Shown here one piece after another: positions 10,177 through 24,957 of a DNA stretch of 64,000 nt (the first letter of the stretch is position 1; every line of letters starts with the position of its first letter). The stretch covers positions 372,076-436,075 of the forward strand of contig JADMKP010000008.1 of the NCBI GenBank assembly GCA_015478775.1. The letters run 5' to 3'. The notes beneath the pieces are model-generated. The model did not search any database and was not told the DNA's origin. It saw only the letters and a list, made by a program, of their open reading frames with translations. The DNA is from Fermentimonas sp. (lineage in GTDB: Bacteria > Bacteroidota > Bacteroidia > Bacteroidales > Dysgonomonadaceae). Position numbers and translations under genes: made by a program.

Positions 10177-11148
10177 ATGATCTATTTTATTGTTATTATT
10201 TTACTACTGGCTTTTGAACTGTTGTATTTGCGACTTGCCTCTAGAAGGGATTCTCTTATAGTACCATACTGGAGTGAGGCTACGAGTGATGAACGCGATT
10301 TTATTACTGTAAGGGGAGGTGGGGTTGTATTTTGGATTGCCTCACTATTACTTCTCATTTTTATTCCCAACGAATTTAACACATGGTTTTTTATAGCAAT
10401 TACTATTGTTGCAGCAATTAGTATGTTTGACGATGTAAAACGAGTGTCTTTATGGACCCAGTTATTGTTTCACATTGTAGCTGTTAGCATTGCATTTTAT
10501 ATAGCAGAACTGTTTGTGGTAATCACCTGGTGGAATCTGCTGTTTGCATATATCTTTTTTATTGGAGTTATGTACTCATTTAGGCCAATGGATGATGTGA
10601 ACGGGATGACAGGACTTTATACATTGGCAGCACTGCTCCCAATGGTGTATGTGAACCAGTATATTGAGTCGTTTATTCATATTTATCACCTTTTGTTTCC
10701 TATTATTGCGGCGTTTATTCTTCTTGTATTTAATCTCAGGAGGGATGCAGCAACAACAGCGGGTAGTGTTGGAAGTATGACTATTGGCTTTTGGGTGAGC
10801 TTTCTTTTGATGATGCTTATAATAGAGAGTGGATCAATTGTATGGCTATCGTTTGTACTTGTATATTTGGTGGATGAAGCACTTACTACAGTTCAGAAAA
10901 TATATCAGAGAAAAGCATTTTTTGGTCCCGAAAAGCTTCACATGTCTCAGCTATTAGGCAATGAGATAAGAGTTGATCACAGACTAGTTTCGTCTATTTA
11001 CTTTTTTATGCAGCTCTTTTGCAGTGTTTTGGTAATATTGCTTTACCCCACTTTGGGAGTATCGATATTCTGGATACTGCTTGTTGTATTAATGAGTTTA
11101 TATTTATTCAAATTCAAAGTAGTGAAAGTTGCCAAACAGCTGCGTTAA
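10177..11148 (+). CDS. WecA/MraY-like polyprenyl-phosphate sugar-1-phosphate transferase
   Basis: A 323-residue protein with about ten membrane helices that fits the MraY/WecA family, which attaches a sugar-1-phosphate to undecaprenyl phosphate at the inner membrane. Landmarks: VRGGGVVFW near residue 46 (the family's RGGG motif); DDVKRVS near residue 86 (the metal-binding DD motif); RPMDDVNGMTG (normally NxxDGxxG); and AGSVGSMTIGF (normally GDxGS, here Ser in place of Asp). The loop LHMSQLLGNEIRVDHRLVS resembles the usual HxHLYQRL region. The acceptor role in O-antigen or capsule synthesis is inferred. No other glycan-synthesis genes lie nearby, and altered motifs make the donor sugar uncertain. 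Confidence 0.8.
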   Translation: MIYFIVIILLLAFELLYLRLASRRDSLIVPYWSEATSDERDFITVRGGGVVFWIASLLLLIFIPNEFNTWFFIAITIVAAISMFDDVKRVSLWTQLLFHIVAVSIAFYIAELFVVITWWNLLFAYIFFIGVMYSFRPMDDVNGMTGLYTLAALLPMVYVNQYIESFIHIYHLLFPIIAAFILLVFNLRRDAATTAGSVGSMTIGFWVSFLLMMLIIESGSIVWLSFVLVYLVDEALTTVQKIYQRKAFFGPEKLHMSQLLGNEIRVDHRLVSSIYFFMQLFCSVLVILLYPTLGVSIFWILLVVLMSLYLFKFKVVKVAKQLR

Positions 11149-11203
11149 CATCTTAATTTAATCTGAATTAATTTAATGTTGAATTTTTAAAAGATCATTT
11201 ATA

Positions 11204-11755
11204 ATGAAATTGAACTATAATACATTATCTAACAGACCACATTTGGCCGTTTTAACAACGGATGGATTTCAGGATATGGAGGTTATTGTACCCATTGGAT
11301 ATCTTGTGAACAAATGTGTTGATATAACAGTGATTGGTCCCAATAAAGGCAGAATTAAAGCTTATAACAGTGACTTTGAGATGATAATTGAGAACGAAGT
11401 GGGAGAGGTTAATATTGATGACTTTGATGCTTTGTTTATCCCCGGAGGGAAAGCACCCGCTGCTTTGAAAGAGCATGAAGGATCGGTGAACTTTACAAGA
11501 GATTTCTTCATGACCGGCAAGACCGTGGCAGCAATTTGCCACGGCCCGCAAGTCTTAGCTGCCACCGGAGTACTTTTAGGTGTTATAACCACCGGTGTAA
11601 GTAAAATAAAGAATGAGCTTAAAAAAGCAGGTGCTATTTACAAAGATGAGGAGTTGGTTATAGATGACAACCTCATTACATCAAGGGTGCCTGAAGATTT
11701 GCCGGTATTTGTAAAGGCAATTGAAGAAGCCTTAATCACAAACCCCATCGATTGA
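11204..11755 (+). CDS. DJ-1/PfpI family protein
   Basis: A 183-residue cytosolic protein of the DJ-1/PfpI superfamily. It shows the start strand HLAVLTTDGFQDMEV with the conserved acidic residue before the nucleophile, the FDALFIPGGKAP loop and the nucleophile elbow AAICHGPQ with C112 and the following His. This arrangement is closest to the PfpI/YhbO-type class, linked to stress resistance through glyoxalase or deglycase-like chemistry; the true substrate is unclear. Its 3' end overlaps the convergent DsbA-like gene by 24 bp. Confidence 0.88.
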   Translation: MKLNYNTLSNRPHLAVLTTDGFQDMEVIVPIGYLVNKCVDITVIGPNKGRIKAYNSDFEMIIENEVGEVNIDDFDALFIPGGKAPAALKEHEGSVNFTRDFFMTGKTVAAICHGPQVLAATGVLLGVITTGVSKIKNELKKAGAIYKDEELVIDDNLITSRVPEDLPVFVKAIEEALITNPID

Positions 11756-12439
11756 GCAACTCTGTCCTTTGGTAATTTCTATCTTAATTTCTGGGTTAGC
11801 TTCTCTCCACTCTGCAAACGACTTCTCAAGGGTTTGTAGGAATGCTTGTTTAGGTTGAGCACCCGATACAGCGTACTTTCTATCGAAGACAAAAAATGGT
11901 ACGCCCTGAACACCTATTGTGCGTGCTTCTTGAATATCTTGTTGCACCCTCTCAAGATACTTATCGTCTGAAAGCGCTGTATTCACATTCTCTTCTGATA
12001 ATCCAATATCATTACCAATCTTAATTAGCGTTGCGTTATCGGCTATATTCTCACCATTAGTAAAAAAAGCCTTAAAGAAACGCTCTTCAGCTTCATCGCC
12101 CAATCCTCTTGTTTTGGCAAACTGTATTACCCTGTGTGCTTTAAGTGAGTTTACCATCACTGCCTTGTCGAAATCATAATCAAGACCTGCACTTTTTGCA
12201 TTATTGGTTACGTTTGCAAGCATACCCTCCACTTGAGGTTTGCCCATACCCTTGGTTCTAGCCAGATAATCGGTGTAATTATTTTTCTGCACCTCAGGAA
12301 TTGAGGGGTCTAGTTGATAACTCTTCCATACCACCTGCAACTTATCTTTATCGGTAAACTGCTCTAGTGCCTTCTCAAAATTTCTTTTGCCTATATAACA
12401 AAACGGACACATCACATCGCTCCATATTTCTATTTTCAT
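11732..12439 (-). CDS. DsbA family oxidoreductase, FrnE-like
   Basis: A 235-residue protein without a signal peptide. It has a thioredoxin fold with a large helical insertion, as in the FrnE/2-hydroxychromene-2-carboxylate isomerase-like branch of DsbA proteins. The CxxC motif is C11-P-F-C14 in SDVMCPFCYIGK, and the cis-Pro region is GVQGVPFFVF. The absence of a signal sequence suggests a cytosolic disulfide isomerase or redox role, as known for Deinococcus FrnE. The gene is convergent with the DJ-1/PfpI gene and overlaps its end. The C-terminal GQSCSIDGVCD adds two further cysteines that could form or transfer a disulfide. Confidence 0.88.
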   Translation of the reverse strand: MKIEIWSDVMCPFCYIGKRNFEKALEQFTDKDKLQVVWKSYQLDPSIPEVQKNNYTDYLARTKGMGKPQVEGMLANVTNNAKSAGLDYDFDKAVMVNSLKAHRVIQFAKTRGLGDEAEERFFKAFFTNGENIADNATLIKIGNDIGLSEENVNTALSDDKYLERVQQDIQEARTIGVQGVPFFVFDRKYAVSGAQPKQAFLQTLEKSFAEWREANPEIKIEITKGQSCSIDGVCD

Positions 12440-12500
12440 ATTGTTCTTTGTTTTAGTTTTATTTTTAGCAATAGTATAAGCTCTATGTGCTATTATTGCA

Positions 12501-12508
12501 CAAACCTA
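12501..12508 (-). promoter_or_regulatory. Possible -7 element for the DsbA-like gene
   Basis: On the minus strand this reads TAGGTTTG, matching TAnnTTTG, about 60 bases before the start codon. A second match (TAAATTTG, 12542-12549) lies further upstream, so the one in use is not certain. Confidence 0.35.
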
Positions 12509-13029
12509 TGCACTAGTATGCTGTATTACTTATATATACTACAAATTTAACGCTTTAATGTCAATAAAGCATGCAGATTGCCCTTCGGCCTCACTTTTGA
12601 ATAATATTATAGATATACATAAACCATTGCTCATCTAGCTTACAGCTATGATTATAAAAACAGTCTTAATGCCATTAATTCTATCAATAATTAGCTAGGC
12701 AATTCATCTCAATTCTGAGAAATCACTATATCAGACCCTAATTTTCTCCGAACCAACACTAGACATGAGCCGCAGCATCTTCATGCCTGCATCGTACCTG
12801 GTCCGTATCTTGCTCGTTTATAAATGAGGATGATCAGGACTTGGTCCTGCTGAAGTAGGGGAGAAGTTGGGGGGATGAGTGTGTTTTTCGTAAAGAAATA
12901 AAATAAAATAATAAAGAGCTAGAGTAAAATGCTGTTTAAAACTAGTTTTCTGATATTTGAAGTAATTATAAATATATAGTAATTATTAATTTATTCTATG
13001 TGAATATTTTTTTAATTAAATAAAAGAAA

Positions 13030-13037
13030 TATATTTG
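13030..13037 (+). promoter_or_regulatory. -7 promoter element for the nine-gene operon
   Basis: TATATTTG matches TAnnTTTG exactly. Transcription would begin near 13044, leaving a leader of about 45 bases before the first start codon at 13089. No other match was noticed before the internal genes, which fits one transcript for the whole block. Confidence 0.5.
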
Positions 13038-13088
13038 TATAATTAATTTTACCAATATATCATAGAAACATTTATATTATAGTTTTAA

Positions 13089-14357
13089 ATGAGAAAGTTA
13101 ATATATTTAATATCCATACCATTGATTGTCCTTTCTGTAACAATTGTTAGCTGTAATGGTAAATCGGGCCGTAATAATAATTGGAATCCCAATTCACTTC
13201 TTGCTTCTCCAATAGAAGATTCATCTGTGCAATTTGAACATACAAAACCTGTCTTAAATGTCTACTTAGAGAACTCTGGCAGTATGGATGGATATGTAAA
13301 TGGAGGTTCTGATTTCGCTAGTATTATATATAGATATCTAAATCATATAGACAATTCAGGTTGGGTTAATGATTCCATTAATTTGCATTATATTAATAGT
13401 AATTTAGTTCCTGTTGGAAGTGATATTACATTATTTTCGAGCAAAAATCTAACTCCTTCATCTTTTAGGATGATGGGAGGAAGTAGAGCTTCAACTGATA
13501 TTTCAGATCTCTTAAAACAAGTTCTAATTAGAACTAACAATGACACTATATCTATGCTGATTTCTGATATGATATTCTCTCCAGGATCAAAAGTTGATGC
13601 GAGTCAATACTTAGAGGATCAAAAAACTGAAATTATGTCTTTGTTTACTAACAAAGTTAATAATAGTGATTTATCCGTAATAATTCATCAACTAAGTACT
13701 GCATTTAATGGCACTTATTTTAATAAAATTGATGCTAAGTCTTCTATCAATGAAAACCGTCCTTTCTATATTATTTTCTTTGGGAATAAGGAGTATTTAG
13801 AGCAAATTCCATTTGAAACTTTACTTCAAGATGACTTAGTTTTAAAACATATAGAAAATAAGTATTTAATTACAAAGGAGGTACCTGTAAACTATGCTGT
13901 TCAAGTAGGATCTGGTAATTTTGTACTAGATAAGAAGGACCCTCAAAAAAGTATAATTAAAGCAAGGAAAGATAAAAGGACAGATAAAATATCATGTGTA
14001 GTAAATGTTAACTTTCAGAATATAATGTTGGATGATTTATATTTAACCGATATAGATAATTATTTTATAGACAATAACTATCAAATTGAATCGATAAAAC
14101 CTTCGGCATTACAAGGCTTCACTCATTCTTTAAAATGGAACACAGTTGTTCCGCAATCAAAAGTACTTTCAATTGGACTATCTAATAAAATCCCTGAGTG
14201 GGTCGATAGGAAGAATGACAGCTCGGGAGATAATTTATTTAACGATGATGCCATAGACAAAACATACGGATTAAAATATTTAATTGAAGGCATTCATGAA
14301 CCATATAAAAAAGCATCAGAATTTTATACAAAAATTGAAATTAATATTAACAACTAA
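13089..14357 (+). CDS. VWA-like lipoprotein, first gene of the tubulin/actin-like operon
   Basis: A 422-residue lipoprotein with a hydrophobic start and lipobox IVSC (C22), followed by NGKSGRNN. A von Willebrand factor A-like domain begins at about residue 54. The metal-site motif reads E61-N-S-G-S-M, so Glu stands where DxSxS has Asp. A Thr follows in RASTDISDLL, and an Asp in MLISDMIFSPG completes a MIDAS-like set. VWA domains bind partner proteins through a metal ion and often act in multi-protein membrane assemblies. The remaining C-terminal 200 residues are mostly beta-rich and unrecognised. Lipidation suggests it works in the periplasm or at the outer membrane. The next gene starts 11 bp downstream. 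Domain call is by motif only. Confidence 0.7.
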   Translation: MRKLIYLISIPLIVLSVTIVSCNGKSGRNNNWNPNSLLASPIEDSSVQFEHTKPVLNVYLENSGSMDGYVNGGSDFASIIYRYLNHIDNSGWVNDSINLHYINSNLVPVGSDITLFSSKNLTPSSFRMMGGSRASTDISDLLKQVLIRTNNDTISMLISDMIFSPGSKVDASQYLEDQKTEIMSLFTNKVNNSDLSVIIHQLSTAFNGTYFNKIDAKSSINENRPFYIIFFGNKEYLEQIPFETLLQDDLVLKHIENKYLITKEVPVNYAVQVGSGNFVLDKKDPQKSIIKARKDKRTDKISCVVNVNFQNIMLDDLYLTDIDNYFIDNNYQIESIKPSALQGFTHSLKWNTVVPQSKVLSIGLSNKIPEWVDRKNDSSGDNLFNDDAIDKTYGLKYLIEGIHEPYKKASEFYTKIEININN

Positions 14358-14368
14358 TAAAGCTAGTA

Positions 14369-14836
14369 ATGGGAAACATTTATTGTGTTTTAGAAAATTT
14401 ATTTGGCGTTAACCTGGCCAACTATCTTTGGGGATATGATTGTGCAACAAACGCATATACCAATCAAAATTTATTCAATATCATAGGTGTTATAGCAATA
14501 GTGATTACACTTATTTTTACATTGATTTATTATTATGCAATTAGACATCCTCGCTTTACTGGATGGGGAAGTTGGTTGATAGTAATGGCTGTGGTAGGTC
14601 TAATTAATTTCTCTATTGGGTATGCTTGGACGAATAATGATTTACTAAATGGGAAAATTGGTAGCTGCTTAGTTCACCAACTGGATCAAAATGGTGATGT
14701 CATTAGTACACAAATTGCTTCAATCAACTGTTTGATGTTTGGTTTTGTAAACCTGCTTGTGTCAATTATTCTGTTAGTGATTTTTTCTTTTGCATTAAAA
14801 TGGTGGAGCAAACATGCCAAATATTCACCCATATAA
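14369..14836 (+). CDS. Small membrane protein of the nine-gene operon, unknown function
   Basis: A 155-residue protein with three clear membrane helices at about residues 37-59, 66-86 and 117-143. A 30-residue polar loop between the last two contains a Cys. The N-terminal 35 residues hold an amphipathic segment with two further cysteines. No family is recognised. The position between the VWA lipoprotein and the tubulin-like gene, with short gaps, makes it a likely membrane anchor or adaptor of the same complex. Confidence 0.75.
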   Translation: MGNIYCVLENLFGVNLANYLWGYDCATNAYTNQNLFNIIGVIAIVITLIFTLIYYYAIRHPRFTGWGSWLIVMAVVGLINFSIGYAWTNNDLLNGKIGSCLVHQLDQNGDVISTQIASINCLMFGFVNLLVSIILLVIFSFALKWWSKHAKYSPI

Positions 14837-14863
14837 ATAAATTAATTAATTAGACATAGTAGT

Positions 14864-16330
14864 ATGAGTAAATTATATATATTTGGAATCGGAGGCACTG
14901 GTTCTCGTGTTCTCAAGTCGTTGATTATGCTTTTAGGAGCTGGTGTTGAAATGAAAAACACATTGGAAATTGTACCTGTTATTATTGATCCTGATTTTGC
15001 ATCTGCAGATTTAACTCGTACTATAGAGCTAATAAAACGATACAAAGGAATTAGATCAAAGATTAAATTTGAATCATCTAAAGAGAACAAGTTTTTCAAT
15101 ACTGATATTAATGATGGCATTTTGCCAAATATGATAATACCTTTAAAAGAAACTCAAGACAAGAGGTTTAAAGAGTATATAGGTCTAGAACTTATGAAAG
15201 ATAGTAGAGGAAAGAGTGACGCTAACTATGCCTTTGCTAATTTACTTTTCTCTGAACAGAATCTTGAGTCAGATATGAATGTAGGTTTCAAAGGAAATCC
15301 TAATATCGGTAGTGTTGTGCTTAATCAAATAACTAATACTAAAGAGTTCGAAAATATTATTGCATCATTTGATCAAGGAGATAGAATCTTTATTATAAGC
15401 TCAATTTTTGGTGGAACTGGAGCAAGCGGTTTTCCACTTCTTCTTAAGAACCTTCGTTCAATATCAGATAAATTGGCGGGTGCTGGAATCATAAAGAATG
15501 CACCCATTGGTGCTATTACTGTCCTTCCTTATTTTGATGTGAAACCAGATAATAATGATAAAAGCAAACGCAGTCAAATTGACTCTTCAACATTTATTTC
15601 TAAAACAAAAGCAGCTCTTTTATATTATGATAAAAATATAAAAGGGGCCAACGCACTATATTATATTTCTGATGATATATCTAAACAGTATGAAAACTCT
15701 GAGGGTGGAACGACTCAAAAAAATGATGCTCATTTTATAGAGATGGCATCAGCTTTAGCAATTATTGACTTTGTAAGTATTTCACCAGAAAATTTAATTA
15801 CACAAAACGGTGTGCCTGATAATTGTATTTATAAGGAATTTGGTATTAAAAACGAAACTGAGAATATCATATTTGGTAACTTAGGTAATCAAACTCAAGG
15901 TTTGATTAAAAAAGAACTACTACAGTTCACTCTTTTTTCAAAATATTTAAAAGAACAGATTAAACTTTCAAGAAACACAACATGGGCAAGAGACCATAAA
16001 TTAGACAACAGTTTTTTTAAATCTAATTTTTACAATTATGATTTAACTGGGTTTTGTGACGATTACATTTCTTGGTTGAATGAGATGTCTTCAAATAGAA
16101 GGGGTTTCTCGCCATTTTATTTAGAAGAAAAAAGGAAAGATTTGTTTTCTTTGGTTAAGGGTTTGAAACCCGATAAGGTGATGAGTCTTGCTTCTAATTA
16201 TGATCTCTTTGACTTTTATCTAAATGAAATTCAACGAGATGTAAAAAAAGATGCGCCAAAAGAAACATGTTTTATAGAGCTGTTCTATCGTGCTACGAGT
16301 ATGCTAGTTAATAAAAAATTCAGTTTATAA
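14864..16330 (+). CDS. Tubulin/FtsZ-like GTPase family protein (Tubulin_2 / FtsZl-1 type)
   Basis: A 488-residue cytosolic protein. The N-terminus reads YIFGIGGTGSR (G8-R15), as in the T1 nucleotide loop of the FtsZ/tubulin superfamily. Residues 183-189 are GGTGASG, the T4 signature that binds the GTP phosphates (GGGTGSG in FtsZ), preceded by a hydrophobic strand (RIFIISSIF). A strand and loop GAITVLPYFDV fits the next core element. It is clearly not cell-division FtsZ. Tubulin-like proteins of this divergent type have been predicted to remodel membranes with VWA and OmpA-family partners, and both are encoded here. Filament formation and GTP hydrolysis are inferred. The gene lies 11 bp before the actin-like gene. 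Confidence 0.75.
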   Translation: MSKLYIFGIGGTGSRVLKSLIMLLGAGVEMKNTLEIVPVIIDPDFASADLTRTIELIKRYKGIRSKIKFESSKENKFFNTDINDGILPNMIIPLKETQDKRFKEYIGLELMKDSRGKSDANYAFANLLFSEQNLESDMNVGFKGNPNIGSVVLNQITNTKEFENIIASFDQGDRIFIISSIFGGTGASGFPLLLKNLRSISDKLAGAGIIKNAPIGAITVLPYFDVKPDNNDKSKRSQIDSSTFISKTKAALLYYDKNIKGANALYYISDDISKQYENSEGGTTQKNDAHFIEMASALAIIDFVSISPENLITQNGVPDNCIYKEFGIKNETENIIFGNLGNQTQGLIKKELLQFTLFSKYLKEQIKLSRNTTWARDHKLDNSFFKSNFYNYDLTGFCDDYISWLNEMSSNRRGFSPFYLEEKRKDLFSLVKGLKPDKVMSLASNYDLFDFYLNEIQRDVKKDAPKETCFIELFYRATSMLVNKKFSL

Positions 16331-16341
16331 ATTTAATTGCC

Positions 16342-19300
16342 ATGGCAAAAGTACTAAGATTACATAAACAAGGTGACAATACGATTAACGATTGGGGAAA
16401 TTCTGCAAAATATAGCAATCAAGTAATTGATCAAATAGTGGATCCTAATGGGCAGTCGCCATCAAGAGAGATTACATCCATACCTTCTCCATTTGCAAGA
16501 ATGGACCTTGTGAAAAGCGCATTTAAAGTAGTAGTTGAATCCCCCAGCTTAGAGGGTAATACTATTTATCATAAGATGGTTTCAGACAGCTTAGATGTGG
16601 GGCAAATATTTTTTGATATTGATAAATTTAAGAATTTAGTTGAGATAATTGTATGGGACAAAGGTAGGGATATAAAAGAATTAGCTATATCAAATAATGA
16701 GGGCCATAAACTTCTTGGTAAAACTTATGAGATTTATCTTAATCAAGATGCAGAATCGTTCAATTTCGATAAGTTGAAATGCATATACATCTTAAATTAT
16801 AAATATGGTAAAGCATTTTCTAATATAATAGGTGGTACTTCACCGGCCTCGTTATTCTTTTCTCCTGCAAATGACTTAAGTTATATAAGTAGCAAGTTTT
16901 CATTAGGTAGTCATTCTGCTTTTGATGGAAAATTCACACCTCTATACAAAAGAAATTTTGAATATCAGAAATACTGGTTTTACCTACAGTCAAAATTTGA
17001 CGGCAAATTTTCACAGTTATTCCCCGAGGTTAATGAGTATTTGGACTTGAGTTATGAAAAATTAAACTGGAATGAAAAGGAGAAAATCCGGAAAATGAGG
17101 GATAACACTACTAATGTTTTTTTACCCTTAACTGTTTCTGGGGCGGGTCATAATGTAGAGGTAGTTGGATATAGTTTAGAAAAAAACAATCCAATCAGTA
17201 AAGCAATTGATAGTGATTTTGCAATTAAAAGCAAAAAGAAAATTACTGAATTAACGCCTCTTGTTCTTCCAATAGGTACATTAAATGAAGAGTATGTTTA
17301 TACTCCAAATAATATTTGGAAAAGTGAATATAAAGCTCCAGTTAAATCAGACAAGCCTTTAGAGGATAGACAACTCCCTAACGATGGTATGAAATACCCT
17401 TTCTTAACAATTAGTGATTTTTTGGAAGATACAATCATTGAATTGCCAGGAAATATAAACCGAGCTGCTTTTTTTGATGGAAATCTTGATAAGCGTGAGG
17501 GTAAAAGCTATTTATTGCCAATTAAAAAAAAGTTCTTTAAGTATTTTTATAATGAGGATCTTACGGGAGTACTACCAGACGGTAAGAAAATGATTGAACT
17601 TAAAATTAGAGCTGATTCCGTTGCTGTTGAGTTACGAATCCCTACTAAGAAAAATTATATTGAGTATAAAAGAACTTATATAGAAAATTACAAGCCTAAT
17701 GTTGACGAAACTAATAATGATGGTGCAGTTGTTAAATGGGATTTTACTTTAGGCTTAATTCCAGCAGTTGATTTTATAAAACCAGAGTTTGCTAACTATC
17801 GTGTAAGTTTGATTTCAACTGTAGGTGATACAAAAACGTACGATTTAGCATTTTATAAAAACAACGAACATATTGGTGAAGTAGAGAATGTAGTGAGGAA
17901 TGTGGACATTATGAATATTCCAAAAAGCGAAACTCGTATAATTGAAAATGAATTGTTTGACACTATCGAAGTCTCAAGTAATATGTGTAGGGGAATTATA
18001 ATACCACAATTAAGAAATCAAACTGGAAATGACAGGTTTGCTTTTGCAATAGATTTTGGTACAACCAACACCCATATAGAATATAGTATTAATGACTCTC
18101 CTTCTAGAGTCTTTGATATTACAGAGGCTGATAAGCAGATTGAGTTTCTATTTGATGATATTGACGATATACATAAGTATATTTTTGATTATGACTTAAT
18201 TCCTGAACATATAGGTGTTGATAAGCAATTTAATTTTCCTACAAGAACAGCTTTGTCTGTTTCCAAAAATGCCAATTATAAACATGCAGTTTACCCTTTA
18301 GCACATGCAAGTCTTGCATTACCATATGAAAAAAGAGTTGGGTATAAGTATAATTATATAAAAACAAATCTTAAGTGGTCTATTGAAGAGAATAATGATG
18401 TTCTTATAAGAAAATACATTGAGTCAATTTTCATCTTAATCAGAAATAAAGTTGCTTTAAATAATGGTGATATTTCTGCCACCAAAATAATATGGTTTTA
18501 CCCAACAAGTATGGCTGAAAGTAGGTATAACTTATATAAAAGAGTATGGAGAGAGTCTTATATGAAGTTCTTTGGAGATAAAGTTGAAGAGAATCTAGTT
18601 GAGATTACTGAATCGATTGCGCCATATAAGTACTATAAAGAAAGTAATTCAGTAAACAACATAGTAAACATAGATATTGGTGGTGGTACTTCAGATATAG
18701 CAATTTCATATAATGGTAAAATAGAGTCTATTACATCATTTAGATTTGCAGCAAATTCAATATTCGGTAATGGATATTCTATAGATGGTCTTTCCAGAAA
18801 CGGGATTGTAGAACAGTATATGGAAAACATTAAAGAGAGGTTGGAGTCCAATAGCCTTGATGCGTTGAATAATGTATATACGGATCTTATTAACAAAAAA
18901 GATAAAAGTGATATGGCATCTTTTTTCTTTTCTCTAAAAGATAATAAAGATGTAAAGGATAAAAACCTGCAAAATCTTTTAGATTTTAATGACATGTTGC
19001 AAAAAGATGAAGATTACTCAATTGTTTTCCTTATTTTCTATGTTGCTCTTATTTATCACTTTGCTCATATTTTAAAATCTAAAGGTTTAAAAATGCCCAG
19101 ACATTTATCATTTAGTGGAAAAGGATCTCTGATTCTTCAAATATTAACCCCAGAAATTAAAACTCTAGAACAGTTTACGAAATTAATTATCGAAAAGGTT
19201 TTTAGAGAACAATATCATTCAGACGGTCTTGATATTATTCACAATATTAAAAATCCAAAAGAAGCCACATGTAAGGGGGGTATTATTAGTAACACAAAAC

Positions 19301-19695
19301 ATGATTATGAAGAAATAGAAAACCTTAAAGTGGTTTTAAAAGGATATGATATGAAGTCTTTTATAAAAAGAGATCAAACATACGAGTCTGTACTAAATGA
19401 TGAAAACTATATAGAGAGTGTAGTGAATGAGGTTATAAAGTTTTTTGATTTCACTTTTAGTTTGAACAGTGAGTTTTCATTCAAAAATAAGCTGAATGTT
19501 TCAAGTAAGTCATTAGAAATAGCAAAGAAAGTGTGTTATAGAGATTTGGAAACTTTTACGAAAAAAGGGATAGATAAAAAACTTGAAGAGGTGTCTAAAG
19601 ACGATAAAATTGAGGAGAGCTTCTTCTTTTATCCGCTAAATGGGGTACTGAATGCACTTACAAATGCGATTTTTCAACAAAAAACAAAAAACTGA
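16342..19695 (+). CDS. Large protein with C-terminal actin/Hsp70-like ATPase domain
   Basis: 1117 residues, the largest product of the operon. The second half is an actin/Hsp70-fold ATPase: phosphate-1 motif AIDFGTTN (DFGTTN at 571-576), phosphate-2 motif NIDIGGGTSD (D778-D785) and adenosine motif SGKGS (925-929). Between them lies a helical, lysine-rich segment. The first 560 residues are beta-rich, with no signal peptide or membrane helix, and resemble nothing I know. Hsp70-like proteins bind ATP and change shape to act on partners; actin-like members form filaments. The fused N-terminal region may be the substrate- or partner-binding part. It is flanked by the tubulin-like gene (11 bp) and a membrane coiled-coil gene (5 bp). 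ATPase fold is confident; its action is unknown. Confidence 0.8.
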   Translation: MAKVLRLHKQGDNTINDWGNSAKYSNQVIDQIVDPNGQSPSREITSIPSPFARMDLVKSAFKVVVESPSLEGNTIYHKMVSDSLDVGQIFFDIDKFKNLVEIIVWDKGRDIKELAISNNEGHKLLGKTYEIYLNQDAESFNFDKLKCIYILNYKYGKAFSNIIGGTSPASLFFSPANDLSYISSKFSLGSHSAFDGKFTPLYKRNFEYQKYWFYLQSKFDGKFSQLFPEVNEYLDLSYEKLNWNEKEKIRKMRDNTTNVFLPLTVSGAGHNVEVVGYSLEKNNPISKAIDSDFAIKSKKKITELTPLVLPIGTLNEEYVYTPNNIWKSEYKAPVKSDKPLEDRQLPNDGMKYPFLTISDFLEDTIIELPGNINRAAFFDGNLDKREGKSYLLPIKKKFFKYFYNEDLTGVLPDGKKMIELKIRADSVAVELRIPTKKNYIEYKRTYIENYKPNVDETNNDGAVVKWDFTLGLIPAVDFIKPEFANYRVSLISTVGDTKTYDLAFYKNNEHIGEVENVVRNVDIMNIPKSETRIIENELFDTIEVSSNMCRGIIIPQLRNQTGNDRFAFAIDFGTTNTHIEYSINDSPSRVFDITEADKQIEFLFDDIDDIHKYIFDYDLIPEHIGVDKQFNFPTRTALSVSKNANYKHAVYPLAHASLALPYEKRVGYKYNYIKTNLKWSIEENNDVLIRKYIESIFILIRNKVALNNGDISATKIIWFYPTSMAESRYNLYKRVWRESYMKFFGDKVEENLVEITESIAPYKYYKESNSVNNIVNIDIGGGTSDIAISYNGKIESITSFRFAANSIFGNGYSIDGLSRNGIVEQYMENIKERLESNSLDALNNVYTDLINKKDKSDMASFFFSLKDNKDVKDKNLQNLLDFNDMLQKDEDYSIVFLIFYVALIYHFAHILKSKGLKMPRHLSFSGKGSLILQILTPEIKTLEQFTKLIIEKVFREQYHSDGLDIIHNIKNPKEATCKGGIISNTKHDYEEIENLKVVLKGYDMKSFIKRDQTYESVLNDENYIESVVNEVIKFFDFTFSLNSEFSFKNKLNVSSKSLEIAKKVCYRDLETFTKKGIDKKLEEVSKDDKIEESFFFYPLNGVLNALTNAIFQQKTKN

Positions 19696-19700
19696 TACCG

Positions 19701-20555
19701 ATGAAGAAAAAAACAATAACTTTTTTATTACTTGCAATTATAATATTGTTAATATCATCAGTAGTGATTATATATAAAAGGAGCAATGATAATTCAAACA
19801 ATAATGTTCAAAAAACAGAACAGACTACAGAAAATGAGGGAGAAGATGTTCAAATGGTCGAACAAGTACAGACAATTAAAATGCAAGTTTATGAGATAAA
19901 TAATGATTTAATAAGAATAAAAAGGAACAACGCTATCCTTACGTTACTAATAATCATTGCTTTTATTTTATATGTACTAAGTTTTCTTATAAAAAGGAAG
20001 ACATATAAACATCGTAGTAAAAGTTCGAGAAGTTCTAATATTGATTTTGAATTAGATATAAAAAGAAAGGTTAGAAGGTTGGAGGTTAGATCAGATGAAT
20101 CTTATAGTACAATAAGGGGCTTATACAAAAAAGTTGAAAATCTCGAAAATAATTTTTCAAAAATTCAAGAAAGTACGAAATTATCAACATGCGAAACAGA
20201 AGTCAATCAAAACAGCATACCAAAAGAGGAAAACGAATCTGAAGATAAAAGCTTTACACCAAACAAAATAAAATACTTAAAAGGTAAAACAGGTGATAAA
20301 TTCAAAAGAGAAGTAGATACTGAAGATCACGAAACCTTTTATAGACTAGAAAAAAATGGAAATATTGGTTTTTTTGAATTCTGCGGAAATCAGGAAGGTG
20401 CATTAGGTAACTTTAGTGCAATATTTGACAATGTGTGTGATTATGAAGGAGATCCAACAAGGGCAAAAAAGATTATCAATATTGAACCTGGTCAGGTCGA
20501 ATTGAATGAAGGCTATTGGAAGGTATCAAAGAAAGCAAAAATTAAAGTGGAATAA
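19701..20555 (+). CDS. Membrane protein with coiled coil, unknown function
   Basis: A 284-residue protein. One hydrophobic helix at about residues 5-26 and a second at about 71-92 enclose a short acidic, Gln-rich extracytoplasmic segment. After the second helix comes a basic patch (KRKTYKHRSKSSRSS), then a probable coiled coil at about 110-165 and a Glu/Lys-rich linker. The C-terminal domain of about 90 residues contains GNIGFFEFCGNQEGALGNF. The topology suggests a cytoplasmic coiled coil and C-terminal domain tied to the inner membrane. No family is recognised. It sits 4 bp before the MotA-like gene and may couple the cytoplasmic ATPase/GTPase pair to the channel. Confidence 0.7.
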   Translation: MKKKTITFLLLAIIILLISSVVIIYKRSNDNSNNNVQKTEQTTENEGEDVQMVEQVQTIKMQVYEINNDLIRIKRNNAILTLLIIIAFILYVLSFLIKRKTYKHRSKSSRSSNIDFELDIKRKVRRLEVRSDESYSTIRGLYKKVENLENNFSKIQESTKLSTCETEVNQNSIPKEENESEDKSFTPNKIKYLKGKTGDKFKREVDTEDHETFYRLEKNGNIGFFEFCGNQEGALGNFSAIFDNVCDYEGDPTRAKKIINIEPGQVELNEGYWKVSKKAKIKVE

Positions 20556-20558
20556 AAT

Positions 20559-22151
20559 ATGGAAACTTACCAAACAATAATTTCGATTTCAATTATAATT
20601 ATTATATTTATTTTTCAGATAGGTGTTTTCGAATCAACTTTATTAGGACTAAAAATATATCGTAATATTTTTCCAAAACTAATAGGAAGTAACAGTTTTA
20701 GTGTGGTTAAAGATGAAAGCACAAATAATATAATTGGAGTTAAGACCACACATAAAAACAATATACTTGAATCAATAGTAATATCTATCAACAGTTATCT
20801 GTTCAATAATCAGGGTAGTGTAAGCGATTTTCATATTTTAAAAGATATAGTAGACAGAAACTGCGATTCAAAAGAAGAAGAAATAAATACTCAAATACCT
20901 ATTCCGATATATCTTGGATTAATGGGTACAATGATAGGGATACTACTAGGTGTGGTTTTTTTAATGAATTCAGGCAGTATACAAGATTTACTTAATATAG
21001 GTAGCACTGGGAACAATATTGATGGGGTGAAAGAAGGCAGTGCTAATGGTATCAGCGGATTATTGTCGGGTGTAGGAGTTGCAATGATAACTAGTATTCT
21101 CGGGATTTTTCTTAATATTTGGGCTTCAAGTTTACAGAAAAGAGATAAAGTTGAAATAGAGAGGAGAAAAAATGATTTCCTTAGTTGGATTCAGGCTGAG
21201 TTGTTACCCCAACTTTCTACTGATACAACTATGGTATTTGAAAGAGTTACTAGAAATTTAATTGACTTCAATAATACTTTTTCCAAAAATACAGATGATC
21301 TAAAAGAAACATTATCTATCGTAGGAGAAACCACTAAGTCGCAAGTCGAACTTATTGAGAAGTTAAACAAATTAAATATTTATGAGATTGCTTCCTTAAA
21401 TATTCAGGTGTACGACAAATTAAAGAATAGTACACAAGAAATTGGTCAGTTTGCTGCTTATCTTGACAATGTAAATGGATATATTAATGGAATTAATGAA
21501 CTCAACAAGAAATTAGATGAACAGGATGTCAGAACAAAAGCCATAGAGGATATGGGATTTTACTTCAAAGAGGAAAGATCCAGAATGGAGAAATGGGATA
21601 GTGCTGTTAGTGCGTCTGTTGCGAAAGCTAATGAAAAGTTATCTGATAGTGTTGAGGCCTTAATAAATAGTTCTGACGAACAGATTAATAGGCTAAAAGA
21701 CAATACTAGAACTCAAACTGATGGATATAGAGATTTAATTGATGACCAGCATAAAGCATTCAATGAAGCTGTAAAAATAGTTAGTGCGGGATTAAAGATT
21801 ACAGTGGAGGAAGGACAAAATGCAATAAATAAAGTTGTTGAGGAAGAAGAGAAGTCATTGCGATCACGAAATGAACAGTTGGAAAAGGTTGTTGAAGAAA
21901 TCCAAAGTTTATCTTCAATTAAAAATTTACTAAGTGATCTAGCGAAAGCTACACGAGAACAAAATAATAAGCTAGATGAACTTGTTACTTCTATAAATAT
22001 AACTCCTACTTATGAGGGGCAAATAGTTAAAACAACACCTCACAGAATAAAAATACCTTTATGGGTTAAAGTATCTGGTGTCGCAGCAGTTTCAATTTTA
22101 GTATTGCCGAATTTAATTACTTTGATAACGTTCATAATATCAATAATATGA
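20559..22151 (+). CDS. MotA/TolQ/ExbB-like (ZorA-like) membrane protein with long coiled-coil tail
   Basis: A 530-residue protein. A helix at about 7-28 is followed by a cytoplasmic domain. Then come the two helices diagnostic of the MotA/TolQ/ExbB family: IPIYLGLMGTMIGILLGVVF (about 116-137) and GLLSGVGVAMITSILGIFLN (about 163-184), the latter followed by the basic stretch QKRDKVEIERRK. Residues 200-470 are mostly heptad-like coiled coil, recalling the long tail of ZorA in Zorya defence. A final hydrophobic helix at about 505-528 is unusual for the family. With the next gene's MotB-like partner it should form a proton- or sodium-driven motor unit in the inner membrane. No chemotaxis or gliding genes are nearby. 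Confidence 0.75.
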   Translation: METYQTIISISIIIIIFIFQIGVFESTLLGLKIYRNIFPKLIGSNSFSVVKDESTNNIIGVKTTHKNNILESIVISINSYLFNNQGSVSDFHILKDIVDRNCDSKEEEINTQIPIPIYLGLMGTMIGILLGVVFLMNSGSIQDLLNIGSTGNNIDGVKEGSANGISGLLSGVGVAMITSILGIFLNIWASSLQKRDKVEIERRKNDFLSWIQAELLPQLSTDTTMVFERVTRNLIDFNNTFSKNTDDLKETLSIVGETTKSQVELIEKLNKLNIYEIASLNIQVYDKLKNSTQEIGQFAAYLDNVNGYINGINELNKKLDEQDVRTKAIEDMGFYFKEERSRMEKWDSAVSASVAKANEKLSDSVEALINSSDEQINRLKDNTRTQTDGYRDLIDDQHKAFNEAVKIVSAGLKITVEEGQNAINKVVEEEEKSLRSRNEQLEKVVEEIQSLSSIKNLLSDLAKATREQNNKLDELVTSINITPTYEGQIVKTTPHRIKIPLWVKVSGVAAVSILVLPNLITLITFIISII

Positions 22152-22161
22152 CTCAGTTTTA

Positions 22162-22818
22162 ATGAAGGTAAAAAAACAACCCTCTTTTTGGGCAAGTTAT
22201 TCAGACTTGATGTCTAACTTGTTTTTTATCATGTTGGTACTCTTTGTATTAGTATTGGCCCTATTGAGCTCAAGAGTTGTGCAAATTAGTACAATAGCTA
22301 TTTCTACAGCAAACCAGTTAAAAATCCTAGAGGAAATTGAGAAATCGACCGATAATATTGACTCTGTTTATTTTGAGTATAAGCCAGAATTCAAAAAGCA
22401 TGTTGTAAAGATTAAAGTAAATTTTGAAACTGGAAGCTCTGATATAAGCAATATTGGTTATACCACTCAACAAAAACTAGCAGCTGCAGGAAAGACAATA
22501 CAAACATTTATAAAGCAAAATACCGAAGAGTATAAAGAGTATGACATTCAATATTTACTTATAATAGAGGGGCAGGCGTCTAAAGATAACTGGGATAGGA
22601 ATTATGAATTAAGTTACGAAAGAGCACTTTCCTTAAAAAAATTTTGGGATGATCAAAATATTCACTTCGGAGATAAATGTGAAGTTTTAATTTCAGGAAG
22701 TGGGGATGGAAGATCTAGTGGAACTGATTTTATGCGTGAACATATTGAGACTGATAATCAGAGATTTCTAATTCATATAATTCCAAAACCTGGTATTGTA
22801 GAAAAAGTAAGTAGTTAA
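22162..22818 (+). CDS. MotB/OmpA-like partner protein (ZorB-like)
   Basis: 218 residues. A short cytoplasmic start leads into one membrane helix, FWASYSDLMSNLFFIMLVLF, in which D14 occupies the place of the ion-carrying Asp of MotB, TolR and ZorB. The rest is an OmpA/MotB-like peptidoglycan-binding domain: VNFETGSSDIS, then LIIEGQASKDNW, NYELSYERALSLKKFW, and ISGSGDGR with DNQRFLIHI. These correspond to the usual FxxgSxxI, GHTD-like, NxxLSxxRAxxV and NRRVEI blocks, though GHTD is changed to GQAS. It should pair with the MotA-like product to form an ion channel anchored to the cell wall. Start chosen at the first ATG; it lies 10 bp after the previous gene. Confidence 0.8.
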   Translation: MKVKKQPSFWASYSDLMSNLFFIMLVLFVLVLALLSSRVVQISTIAISTANQLKILEEIEKSTDNIDSVYFEYKPEFKKHVVKIKVNFETGSSDISNIGYTTQQKLAAAGKTIQTFIKQNTEEYKEYDIQYLLIIEGQASKDNWDRNYELSYERALSLKKFWDDQNIHFGDKCEVLISGSGDGRSSGTDFMREHIETDNQRFLIHIIPKPGIVEKVSS

Positions 22819-22832
22819 CAATATTGTCAATC

Positions 22833-23594
22833 ATGAGACAGGTCATTTATTTTGTACTGATTTTTTTATTATTAGCCACTTCTTGCGGAAGAAAATCGGG
22901 GCGAATGGTAAATGATGGCAATCAAGTTCAAGGAAACTCTAATTCCGAAAATCAAAACTATGTAGTACGTAGAAATCAAAACACAAAAACCAAATCTGCA
23001 ACAGCCCAACCTGGGCCTAAAGTTACGAAGAATCCTTTGACAGGGAGCGAGATTTTTGAAAAATATAACAAAGCTGTTTTCATGGTTTACACTTATGATG
23101 GTGTTAATGTTTTTCAAGGTTCAGGGTTTGTAGTGAAGAGTAAGGGAATTGCAGTTAGTAATTATCATGTTTTTGAAGGTACAGGAATGGGATTTGAGTT
23201 GTTAGTATTTTCAAATGGTAACGAATATAATCTTAAGGATGTAATAGCATATGATAAAGAAAAAGATATAATAATATTTAGTATAGACTCTGATGGTGAA
23301 ATATTTCCTTTTATACCAATTTCTACCTCTACGCCAAGAGTAGGTGAAAAAGTATATGCAATAGGTAGTCCATTAGGTTTAGAAAATACTTTTTCGTCAG
23401 GTGAGATTTCGCAGATAAGAGGTTCTGATATTATTCAAATTAGTGCTCCAATTGATCATGGTAGTAGTGGTGGTGCTCTTTTAAATAATTATGGAGAGGC
23501 AATAGGAATTACAACTGCAGGTATAGACGAATCAAGTGCTAACCTCAATTTTGCAATAAATATAAATGTTGTAAAGAAATATCTATCAGAATGA
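22833..23594 (+). CDS. Trypsin-like serine protease lipoprotein (HtrA-type fold)
   Basis: 253 residues. The ATG at 22833 is preferred to a TTG three codons earlier. The signal peptide ends in the lipobox ATSC (C18) and is followed by GRKSGR, a motif shared with the other lipoproteins of the operon. A low-complexity polar linker of about 50 residues precedes a chymotrypsin-fold protease. The triad is H112 in SNYHVFEG, D145 in KEKDIIIF and S212 in DHGSSGGALLN, with the AIGSPLGLENTFSSGEIS segment typical of HtrA/Deg enzymes. There is no PDZ domain. It would act in the periplasm, either trimming partners of the complex or as an effector. Its stop overlaps the next start (ATGA). Confidence 0.88.
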   Translation: MRQVIYFVLIFLLLATSCGRKSGRMVNDGNQVQGNSNSENQNYVVRRNQNTKTKSATAQPGPKVTKNPLTGSEIFEKYNKAVFMVYTYDGVNVFQGSGFVVKSKGIAVSNYHVFEGTGMGFELLVFSNGNEYNLKDVIAYDKEKDIIIFSIDSDGEIFPFIPISTSTPRVGEKVYAIGSPLGLENTFSSGEISQIRGSDIIQISAPIDHGSSGGALLNNYGEAIGITTAGIDESSANLNFAININVVKKYLSE

Positions 23595-24127
23595 AAAATA
23601 ATTTTTTACTTATATTATTATCCTGTATTTTCTTAATTTCCTGTACAAGAAAATCGGGTCCTAACGCTGCACCATCTGACACTTACTATAGAATTGAAAA
23701 AAAGAATTCAAAGTCTGATGTTGATTATTATATTACTGTAGTAAAGGTAGTTGATGGAGATACATTTGATGCTGTCACTCAAGATGGAATTGAAATTCGT
23801 TATCGCATACATGGCATAGATGCACCAGAAAGAAAACAAGATTATACTACAAAGTCAAAAGATAAATTATCTGAATTAATTTTTGGAAAAAGTGTTGGTA
23901 TAAAAGTGCAAAAGAAAAGGGATGGGTACGGCAGACCTATAGTATATGTGAGAACTGCTGAATATAATGATGTTGGTGCTGAAATGCTAAGATCGGGTTT
24001 AGCGTGGCATTCAAAAAAATATGATAATTCTGAACTTTATGATGAATTAGAAAAAGAAGCACGCAGGGACAGGAGGGGTATGTGGGATGCAAATAATCCT
24101 ATACCACCATGGGAATATCGTAATTAA
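23591..24127 (+). CDS. Thermonuclease (staphylococcal nuclease-like) lipoprotein
   Basis: 178 residues. The signal peptide ends in the lipobox ISC and is followed by TRKSGP, close to the motif in the two other lipoproteins of the operon. The SNase domain is complete: VVDGDTFDAV (calcium-binding Asp), RYRIHGIDAPERKQ (containing the catalytic Arg and Glu of the RxxGIDxPE motif) and DGYGRPIVYV (second catalytic Arg), then GLAWHSKKY and the late RRGMWDA. Such nucleases cut DNA and RNA, here outside the inner membrane. It overlaps the protease gene by four bases and ends the operon. In a defence setting it could degrade incoming DNA; a nutritional role is also possible. No inhibitor gene is visible. 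Confidence 0.9.
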   Translation: MKNNFLLILLSCIFLISCTRKSGPNAAPSDTYYRIEKKNSKSDVDYYITVVKVVDGDTFDAVTQDGIEIRYRIHGIDAPERKQDYTTKSKDKLSELIFGKSVGIKVQKKRDGYGRPIVYVRTAEYNDVGAEMLRSGLAWHSKKYDNSELYDELEKEARRDRRGMWDANNPIPPWEYRN

Positions 24128-24298
24128 AATCAACATTCAACTATACTTTTTGACCGATTAGGCCAAGACGAAAAGTGCTTCTTTCCAATTCAGGATTGTC
24201 TGCATCAAAATTGACAAAGAACCCTTATAGATCGAAAGTGCTGGTATAAATCAAACCGTTTTATCCAATGTTTGATGTATTACAATCAAAAGAAACTG

Positions 24299-24306
24299 TA
24301 TATTTG
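24299..24306 (+). promoter_or_regulatory. -7 promoter element before the TlpA-like gene
   Basis: TATATTTG matches TAnnTTTG, about 38 bases before the first ATG of the thioredoxin-like gene. This suggests that transcription of that gene is separate from the nine-gene operon upstream. Confidence 0.45.
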
Positions 24307-24336
24307 AATTAAGTAGAATAATATTGATATCCTAAG

Positions 24337-24957
24337 ATGACAACCAACAGATTAAAAGCAGGAAATATGCAGGATAATAAATGGAAGTTTATTAAAAAGA
24401 ATGCCTTCACTATAGTGTTGGTTATTATCGTGGGGGTATTGTTTTTTAGCCCCGATGCAAAATCATTTGTGTTGCGACAATTAGTGGCAACTGGACTTTT
24501 TAATCCTAGTATAGATAATAAGGATGCTAATATGGCGAACTTGGCAAAAGTAGATTTTGATTTTGTTGACGAGGGAGGGAACCTTCAAAATACTTCATCC
24601 TTAAGAGGCAAAGTGGTATTTATTAATTTTTGGGCATCATGGTGTCCACCTTGCAGAGCAGAATTTCCTTCAATCGAAAAACTTTATACTCAGTTTAATG
24701 ACAACCCTGATTTCATCTTTCTTACCATCAACGAGGACATCGACACAATTGCTGGAAAAGCATACCTTGATAAAGAGGGCTTTACTGTTCCGATGTATCA
24801 GTCCAGAGGTAATGTTCCCGCAGAAGTATATTCCGGTACATTGCCCACTACTGTTGTTTTAGATAAGAATGGAATGGTAAGATATCATCATATTGGGATT
24901 GCTAATTATGCATCAAAGAAATTTGTGAGACAGATTAGGGAATTGATAAATGAATAA
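24337..24957 (+). CDS. TlpA-like thioredoxin family protein, membrane anchored
   Basis: 206 residues. A membrane anchor at about residues 24-42 (AFTIVLVIIVGVLFF) is followed by a thioredoxin-like domain of the TlpA/ResA type with the active-site motif FWASWCPPCRAEF. Later landmarks are LTINEDID and SGTLPTTVVLDKNG with the cis-Pro. It should reduce disulfides in exported proteins or cytochromes. An alternative start at 24367 (MQDNKWKF) would remove ten residues, and the sequence does not decide between them. The SDR-like gene follows 12 bp downstream and is likely cotranscribed. Confidence 0.88.
   Translation: MTTNRLKAGNMQDNKWKFIKKNAFTIVLVIIVGVLFFSPDAKSFVLRQLVATGLFNPSIDNKDANMANLAKVDFDFVDEGGNLQNTSSLRGKVVFINFWASWCPPCRAEFPSIEKLYTQFNDNPDFIFLTINEDIDTIAGKAYLDKEGFTVPMYQSRGNVPAEVYSGTLPTTVVLDKNGMVRYHHIGIANYASKKFVRQIRELINE

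Follow-up and report, generated by a model that had tools for sequence, protein, structure and literature searches.

A patchily distributed operon joins tubulin-like, actin/Hsp70-like and ZorAB-like proteins with exchangeable hydrolases in Bacteroidota

Results

Overall organization of the operon

A 64,000-nucleotide stretch of Fermentimonas sp. DNA (GenBank assembly GCA_015478775.1, contig JADMKP010000008.1, positions 372,076–436,075; hereafter the window) holds an operon that joins a tubulin-like GTPase and an actin/Hsp70-like ATPase to a ZorA/ZorB-like motor pair and two hydrolases. Nine open reading frames (ORFs) lie on the plus strand between positions 13089 and 24127, collinear and tightly packed, and the GC content of this AT-rich stretch is 0.309 vs 0.387, in agreement with the compact same-strand block reported in a preliminary description of the DNA. 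In order, the genes encode a VWA-like lipoprotein (VWA; 13089–14357, 422 amino acids (aa)), a small membrane protein (TM4; 14369–14836, 155 aa), a tubulin/FtsZ-like GTPase (TUB; 14864–16330, 488 aa), a giant actin/Hsp70-like ATPase (ACT; 16342–19695, 1117 aa), a coiled-coil membrane protein with a conserved C-terminal domain (TMC; 19701–20555, 284 aa), a ZorA/MotA-like motor subunit (20559–22151, 530 aa), a ZorB/MotB-like motor subunit (22162–22818, 218 aa), a trypsin/HtrA-like serine protease lipoprotein (22824–23594, 256 aa) and a Staphylococcal-nuclease-like (SNase) lipoprotein (23591–24127, 178 aa). Across related loci, median intergenic gaps are 2–17 bp, and 4-bp overlaps lead into the hydrolase genes. 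The genome also encodes an ordinary FtsZ on another contig, and its only strong ZorB-like gene is the one described here.

Tubulin-like and actin-like components

The structure model of TUB and the fold search agree on tubulin, sequence profile matches being weak, and the predicted tubulin/FtsZ GTPase fold, already named in the preliminary description, is a firm call. In the nucleotide-binding T4 loop (FGGTGASG, 15407–15430), F182, G183, G184, T185, G186 and A187 are invariant in 40 sequences. Set against the T4 signature GGGTG(S/T)G, the family reads FGGTGA(S/T/A)G; the glycine loop is kept and positions 1 and 6 differ. As judged from the model only, residues 342–486 form separate helices rather than one long coil.

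Assignment of ACT to the actin/Hsp70 superfamily, likewise proposed earlier, is good but weaker and comes from motifs together with significant profile matches to MreB/Hsc70. A phosphate-1-type motif (DFGTTNTH, 18052–18075), a phosphate-2-type motif (DIGGGTSD, 18673–18696) and an adenosine-type motif (FSGKGS, 19111–19128) occur in this order at residues 571, 778 and 924, and D571, G573, D778, G780, G781, D785 and G926 are each conserved in 38 of 38 sequences. The ATPase domain starts at about residue 565; the N-terminal half has no assigned fold. In two flavobacterial loci, J-domain-like proteins adjoin the operon (L048:5844-6800, L048:19297-20181, L048:20184-21062 and L054:20214-21395) and are perhaps partners of the Hsp70-like ATPase. 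Another locus carries, upstream of its core genes, a second large protein of 1200 aa that looks Hsp70/actin-like by eye and has no Pfam match at E 1e-5 (L015:10708-14310).

VWA-like lipoprotein, membrane proteins and motor pair

The first protein has a signal peptide followed by Cys22 and carries residues resembling a metal-ion-dependent adhesion site (MIDAS), namely E61, S63, S65, T136 and D160. The E-N-S-G-S part of the motif lies at 13269–13283, and among 39 family members position 61 is Glu in 37 (Asp in two), S63 is kept in 36, and S65 and D160 are kept in all 39. An hhalign comparison of the trimmed family with VWA gave P 3.5e-4, better than the best control; the untrimmed comparison (P 0.015) was not better than its best control, and neither a VWA Pfam match among the 39 members nor a PDB profile match was found. 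With the structure model and fold search also considered, the VWA-like call of the preliminary description has moderate support. Of 84 TM4 members, 71 show three hydrophobic segments. The window TMC has two; among 37 members, 19 have two, 16 have one and two have none. These counts are rough, because hydrophobicity also assigned one false-positive segment to 18 of 40 tubulin-like proteins.

An ion-channel pair of MotA/ZorA-like and MotB/ZorB-like proteins had been proposed, and its two halves fared differently. The ZorB/MotB-like call is firm by sequence: a strong profile match is accompanied by a MotB-like transmembrane segment, an OmpA-like domain and a membrane Asp present in 40 of 40 members. 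This residue, Asp15 (22204–22206), is expected to bind the driving ion and is the counterpart of the critical ZorB Asp described for Zorya (PMC11890865). The ZorA/MotA-like call, to a family whose Zorya member is a 5:2 partner of ZorB with a long cytoplasmic tail, is weak by profile and is helped by its position beside ZorB and by its membrane pattern; the protein has a long coiled coil, and 22 of 34 members, like that of the window, have an extra C-terminal hydrophobic segment.

A recurring five-gene core with patchy distribution

A scan of named genomes returned at least 561 TUB relatives, the best 80 of which were used. Together with eight further loci and the window, they form a set of 89 loci, many of them cut by contig ends. 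Profile searches over this set found VWA in 80, TM4 in 84, TUB in 89, ACT in 87, TMC in 75, ZorA in 53, ZorB in 48, the trypsin-like protease in 23 and SNase in 10. Among the 65 of 80 named loci with enough flanking sequence to judge the core, VWA, TM4, ACT and TMC surround TUB in 59, the exceptions being L039, L074, L089, L095, L099 and L100; the VWA-like family is present in 63 of the 65. Downstream genes were judged in a set of 59 loci with at least 9.8 kb of sequence on that side, and ZorA/ZorB-like genes follow the core in 40 of these. The complete nine-gene order is identical in L012, from the same family, and recurs with small additions or splits in L042, L054, L055, L073, L090 and L104. 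Co-occurrence of the genes in other genomes, the check named beforehand for the proposal of a single machine built from Zorya-like and FtsZl1-like parts, thus supports that proposal, as do the surviving tubulin and channel calls, that of ZorA only weakly.

The distribution is patchy. TUB matches were found in 2 of 39 genomes of the genus, 6 of 101 of the family and 13 of 392 sampled genomes of the phylum (11 of 174 genera), the window genome included each time. Carriers are mostly Bacteroidota, many of them from gut or rumen by record title; the core also occurs in one Leptospiraceae and one Sulfuricurvum bin, either of which may be contaminated. Six plasmid records match, five cyanobacterial and one a 1.77-Mb Prevotella replicon. 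Two of the six were examined: the Prevotella replicon holds all five core families, and a Picosynechococcus plasmid (L129) holds a weaker form of the core with VWA, TUB, ACT and two weak TMC matches.

Several loci depart from the full layout. Prevotella-type loci (L079, L085, L086, L088, L109 and L111) consist of the five core genes with neither ZorAB nor hydrolases, which implies a use for the core by itself. In L083, L084, L110 and L130, which include Spirosoma loci, an aspartic protease comes directly after the core with no ZorAB. A divergent variant (L018:3557-12351) carries TUB, ACT and a tetratricopeptide-repeat protein; a TerD identity given by eye to a protein of this locus was not borne out by Pfam at E 1e-5.

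Unrelated hydrolases are exchanged at the end of the core

The trypsin-like and SNase calls made earlier are firm (Trypsin_2 2.6e-24; SNase 1.5e-18), and the catalytic residues are conserved. H115, D148 and S214 of the protease are invariant in 19 sequences; its nearest NCBIfam models are DegP/HtrA, with no PDZ match. In the nuclease, DGDT, R72, D77, E80 and R115 are invariant in nine sequences. Across loci, the gene after ZorB, often with a 4-bp overlap, encodes a lipoprotein protease of one of two unrelated kinds, trypsin-like or retropepsin-like aspartic (gag-asp_proteas 6.9e-17). In a minority of loci a nuclease then follows, which is SNase-like, NucA-type (Endonuclease_NS 2.7e-54) or DNase I-type (Exo_endo_phos 1.1e-8). 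The two protease types occur together in none of the 59 loci, across which nuclease and protease types vary independently. The hydrolases are thus a swappable module, drawn from unrelated folds, at the end of a conserved core.

Before any correction for kinship, hydrolases and motor genes are strongly associated. Among the 40 ZorAB loci, a protease is present in 28, a nuclease in 15, both in 12 and neither in nine; among the 19 loci without ZorAB, five have a protease, none has a nuclease and 14 have neither. A protease and/or nuclease is thus carried by 31 of 40 loci with ZorAB vs 5 of 19 without (Fisher 4e-4, kinship ignored). On a quick short-search TUB tree, in which 41 of 92 inner branches are well supported, protease type needs at least nine changes over 39 loci, and likewise over 34 under a stricter choice of loci, where shuffled labels give a similar number (mean 11.1); nuclease type needs six changes over 20 loci or four over 16 (shuffled mean 7.0).

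A lipobox pattern indicates a lipid anchor in 42 of 62 hydrolases (28 of 39 proteases and 14 of 23 nucleases). According to the text of PMC5080379, Bacteroidota lipoproteins need acidic residues after the lipid-bearing Cys to be exported to the surface. An acidic pair in the six residues after this Cys was found in 0 of 28 proteases vs 9 of 80 other lipoproteins of the same loci, and at least two basic residues with no acid in 19 of 28 vs 13 of 80. The 14 nucleases with a lipobox have no acidic pair either, and only four of them are basic without acid. Since the protease tethers are without the acidic surface-export signal, the proteases are predicted from sequence to face the periplasm. Just past the lipid Cys, a KSGR-like motif, [KRHS]SG[RKHSQ], occurs in 13 of 17 trypsin-like and 4 of 11 aspartic proteases, in one of eight SNase-like and none of four NucA-type nucleases, and in 2 of 47 VWA-like and 0 of 75 other lipoproteins; these counts cover only rows with a recognised lipobox, which dropped 6 of 23 trypsin-like and 5 of 16 aspartic proteases. 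This shared motif was first seen in the window and is only a hint, because it was chosen post hoc.

Other gene families also occupy the operon ends. Four termite-symbiont and related loci (L035, L041, L044 and L047) end in zinc-ribbon/SH3 proteins (family c16) or in a large membrane family without a Pfam match (c22), which replace the usual hydrolases. A small membrane family, DUF6804, recurs near operon ends in seven loci (L057, L062, L080 and L104 among them; the Pfam match is for L080).

The operon lies on an island absent from a close relative

An empty site was found in G066, the closest relative with both flanking genes. Window segments 11001–12570 (86.9%) and 24365–24540 (90.9%) match this genome, where they are 67 bp apart compared with 11.8 kb in the window, and there the DsbA-like and TlpA-like neighbours of the operon adjoin each other. 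This places the whole operon on a genomic island of approximately 12571–24285, with the right end at about 24285–24364 (24285 was judged by eye). The site is seen in one genome, whose contig ends inside the right-hand gene; among the 39 genomes, G066 is the only other one with that gene. Composition and patchiness tentatively favour gain by the window genome over loss in G066. In four loci the gene immediately upstream of VWA encodes a tyrosine integrase. No transposon-type repeats were found in 12450–13100 or 24100–24400, each searched separately, a search that does not cover repeats shared between the ends. The operon is a patchy and apparently mobile cassette. The exchange of hydrolases, the occurrence of the core without motor or hydrolases and the absence of the island from a close relative all go beyond the preliminary description.

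That description had also raised a location in defence islands, an idea that the flanking genes did not bear out. PADLOC families numbered 17 among 120 flank proteins, taken from a random draw of 145 out of the 506 flank proteins of the named loci, vs 46 among 120 control proteins; the control is imperfect, being drawn from 11 hand-chosen stretches of six carrier genomes other than those of the flanks, with simple ORF calling on both sides. A defence-island location was accordingly rejected.

Discussion

Our results are best explained by a laterally moved, single-operon envelope machine whose most likely role is immunity against invading DNA (phage), a reading that we hold tentatively and at slightly less than even confidence. 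An active machine is likely, given the conservation of its motor residues, catalytic sites and nucleotide motifs. In the mechanism that we propose, the cytoplasmic TUB GTPase and ACT ATPase would form a nucleotide-driven switch or filament, which TMC and TM4 would link to the ZorA/ZorB-type ion motor in the inner membrane. The periplasmic targets of the motor would be the VWA-like lipoprotein and the lipid-tethered, non-specific protease and, in part of the loci, nuclease. Such hydrolases would be lethal in the cytoplasm but could be tolerated in the periplasm, which contains none of the cell's own DNA. Injected DNA and proteins could thus be degraded in that compartment with no need to recognise a sequence, and it is the compartment that would separate self from non-self. 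We infer from the predicted placement of non-specific nucleases and proteases outside the cytoplasm that incoming macromolecules are their targets. This specific scheme, compartment-based immunity in which a TUB/ACT nucleotide-gated switch drives a ZorAB-type motor and unleashes exchangeable tethered nucleases and proteases in the periplasm, is possible and clearly more doubtful than the immune role itself.

If correct, the scheme would amount to a new class of immunity, one that identifies the invader by its location and not by its sequence. Tubulin-type and actin-type nucleoside triphosphatases (NTPases) would share one bacterial machine with an ion-driven membrane motor, Zorya-like motors would gain a new effector logic, and the membrane-remodelling prediction made for FtsZl1 in 2010 would acquire a concrete, testable output. 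The exchange of unrelated proteases and nucleases behind a single conserved core would also find an explanation.

Several observations weigh against an immune machine of this design. No hydrolase was recognised in nine of the 40 ZorAB loci, a nuclease is present in only 15 of them, and 14 of the 19 loci without ZorAB lack both enzymes, so the hydrolases appear dispensable in some versions; core-only versions lack the motor as well. Corrected for kinship, the association between ZorAB and hydrolases is only suggestive, with about four of six independent pairs in agreement, none opposed and a median p of 0.125. The flanks show no enrichment of defence genes, and a phage collection of 50,697 records gave no matches, which neither helps the immune reading nor excludes it. 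The ZorA-like profile matches are weak. The Asp at the GHTD position of OmpA domains has a role in peptidoglycan binding. In the ZorB-like protein of the window this position reads GQAS (22570–22581), and the Asp is absent from most members (Ser in 33 of 40), with Arg154 conserved in all 40. Anchoring to peptidoglycan, a requirement of Zorya (PMC11890865), is therefore doubtful here.

The strongest alternative, which we consider rather unlikely, is envelope remodelling or stress repair, in which the NTPases and motor would reorganise the envelope and the hydrolases would clear damaged material. Membrane remodelling was the role predicted for FtsZl1/Tubulin_2 operons that include VWA and OmpA-family genes (Makarova and Koonin 2010, PMC2875224), and the core-only versions, the nearness of the trypsin-like protease to DegP/HtrA models and the J-domain proteins flanking the operon in two loci all suit such a role. 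General housekeeping, however, fits poorly with the patchiness and the empty site, and freely exchanged nucleases have no obvious part in repair. A use in scavenging or uptake, whereby an energised envelope device breaks down DNA and protein outside the cell, as food or for transformation, is improbable. It would agree with the joint presence of a non-specific nuclease and a protease in 12 of 40 ZorAB loci, with the many gut and rumen carriers and with the fact that uptake, too, is powered by this class of ion motor (PMC11890865); however, neither a SusC/SusD nor a channel gene was found among the nine, the tethers are without the acidic surface-export signal, and even within the genus only 2 of 39 genomes, the window genome included, are carriers.

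Regulated cell death is very improbable. On activation, the motor or NTPases would breach the inner membrane, and the tethered nuclease and protease would enter the cytoplasm and kill the infected cell; related predicted conflict systems do couple proteases with NucA-type nucleases (PMC7159879), but this reading requires enzymes that face the inner membrane, and no pore-forming domain was recognised in the nine proteins. Antagonism, with hydrolases delivered to rival cells, is the least probable: the enzymes are exchanged like polymorphic effectors, but 42 of 62 have lipid anchors, no immunity gene was recognised beside them and the nine proteins include no known injection part.

With immunity against invading DNA as the preferred reading, the operon can be set beside its closest known systems; no paper recognisable as describing this combination was found in the open-access literature, subscription papers and preprints lying outside that scope. 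The FtsZl1 operons (PMC2875224) share with it a divergent tubulin-like GTPase (Tubulin_2), VWA and OmpA-family genes in one operon, a patchy distribution and a predicted membrane association. In most FtsZl1 GTPases the tubulin domain is followed by a long coiled coil. A paper from 2023 treats Tubulin_2 proteins as divergent FtsZ-like and sets them apart (PMC9871819). In contrast to FtsZl1, the present operon also has the giant actin/Hsp70-like ATPase, the ZorAB-like pair and the swappable hydrolases, and none of its nine proteins matches a P-loop GTPase or kinase family of Pfam. The article text of PMC2875224, its additional files not being covered, gives no hit for Hsp70, MotB, nuclease or protease.

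Conflict systems with DO-GTPase and GAP1-N2 (Kaur et al. 2020, PMC7159879) resemble it in tubulin and vWA genes and a predicted membrane-proximal location, with HSP70 in another theme. In the relevant section of that paper, however, the tubulin and HSP70 themes are non-overlapping, whereas both are found in one operon here, and Bacteroidota lie outside the main carriers listed. Membership was rejected, as no TRAFAC-type DO-GTPase or GAP1 Pfam match was obtained in the nine proteins at E 0.5, a search that does not extend to the rest of the genome. The NucA-trypsin conflict System 3 of the same paper likewise couples a trypsin-like protease with a NucA-type nuclease, but the passage on it mentions neither a motor nor cytoskeletal NTPases, and in our loci nuclease and protease types vary independently.

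Zorya offers a comparable motor, with a ZorA/ZorB-type membrane pair, a long cytoplasmic coiled coil, a membrane Asp and an OmpA-like periplasmic domain (PMC11890865). Unlike Zorya, the operon is without ZorC, ZorD and ZorE, and membership was rejected, as PADLOC gave no match to these in the nine proteins at E 0.5. Its hydrolases are predicted periplasmic lipoproteins and not cytoplasmic, its motor has tubulin- and actin-like partners, and an additional C-terminal hydrophobic segment is common in its ZorA-like protein. What emerges is a recurrent, apparently mobile and modular envelope machine that joins parts each known from separate systems, and for which an immune role would be the best explanation.

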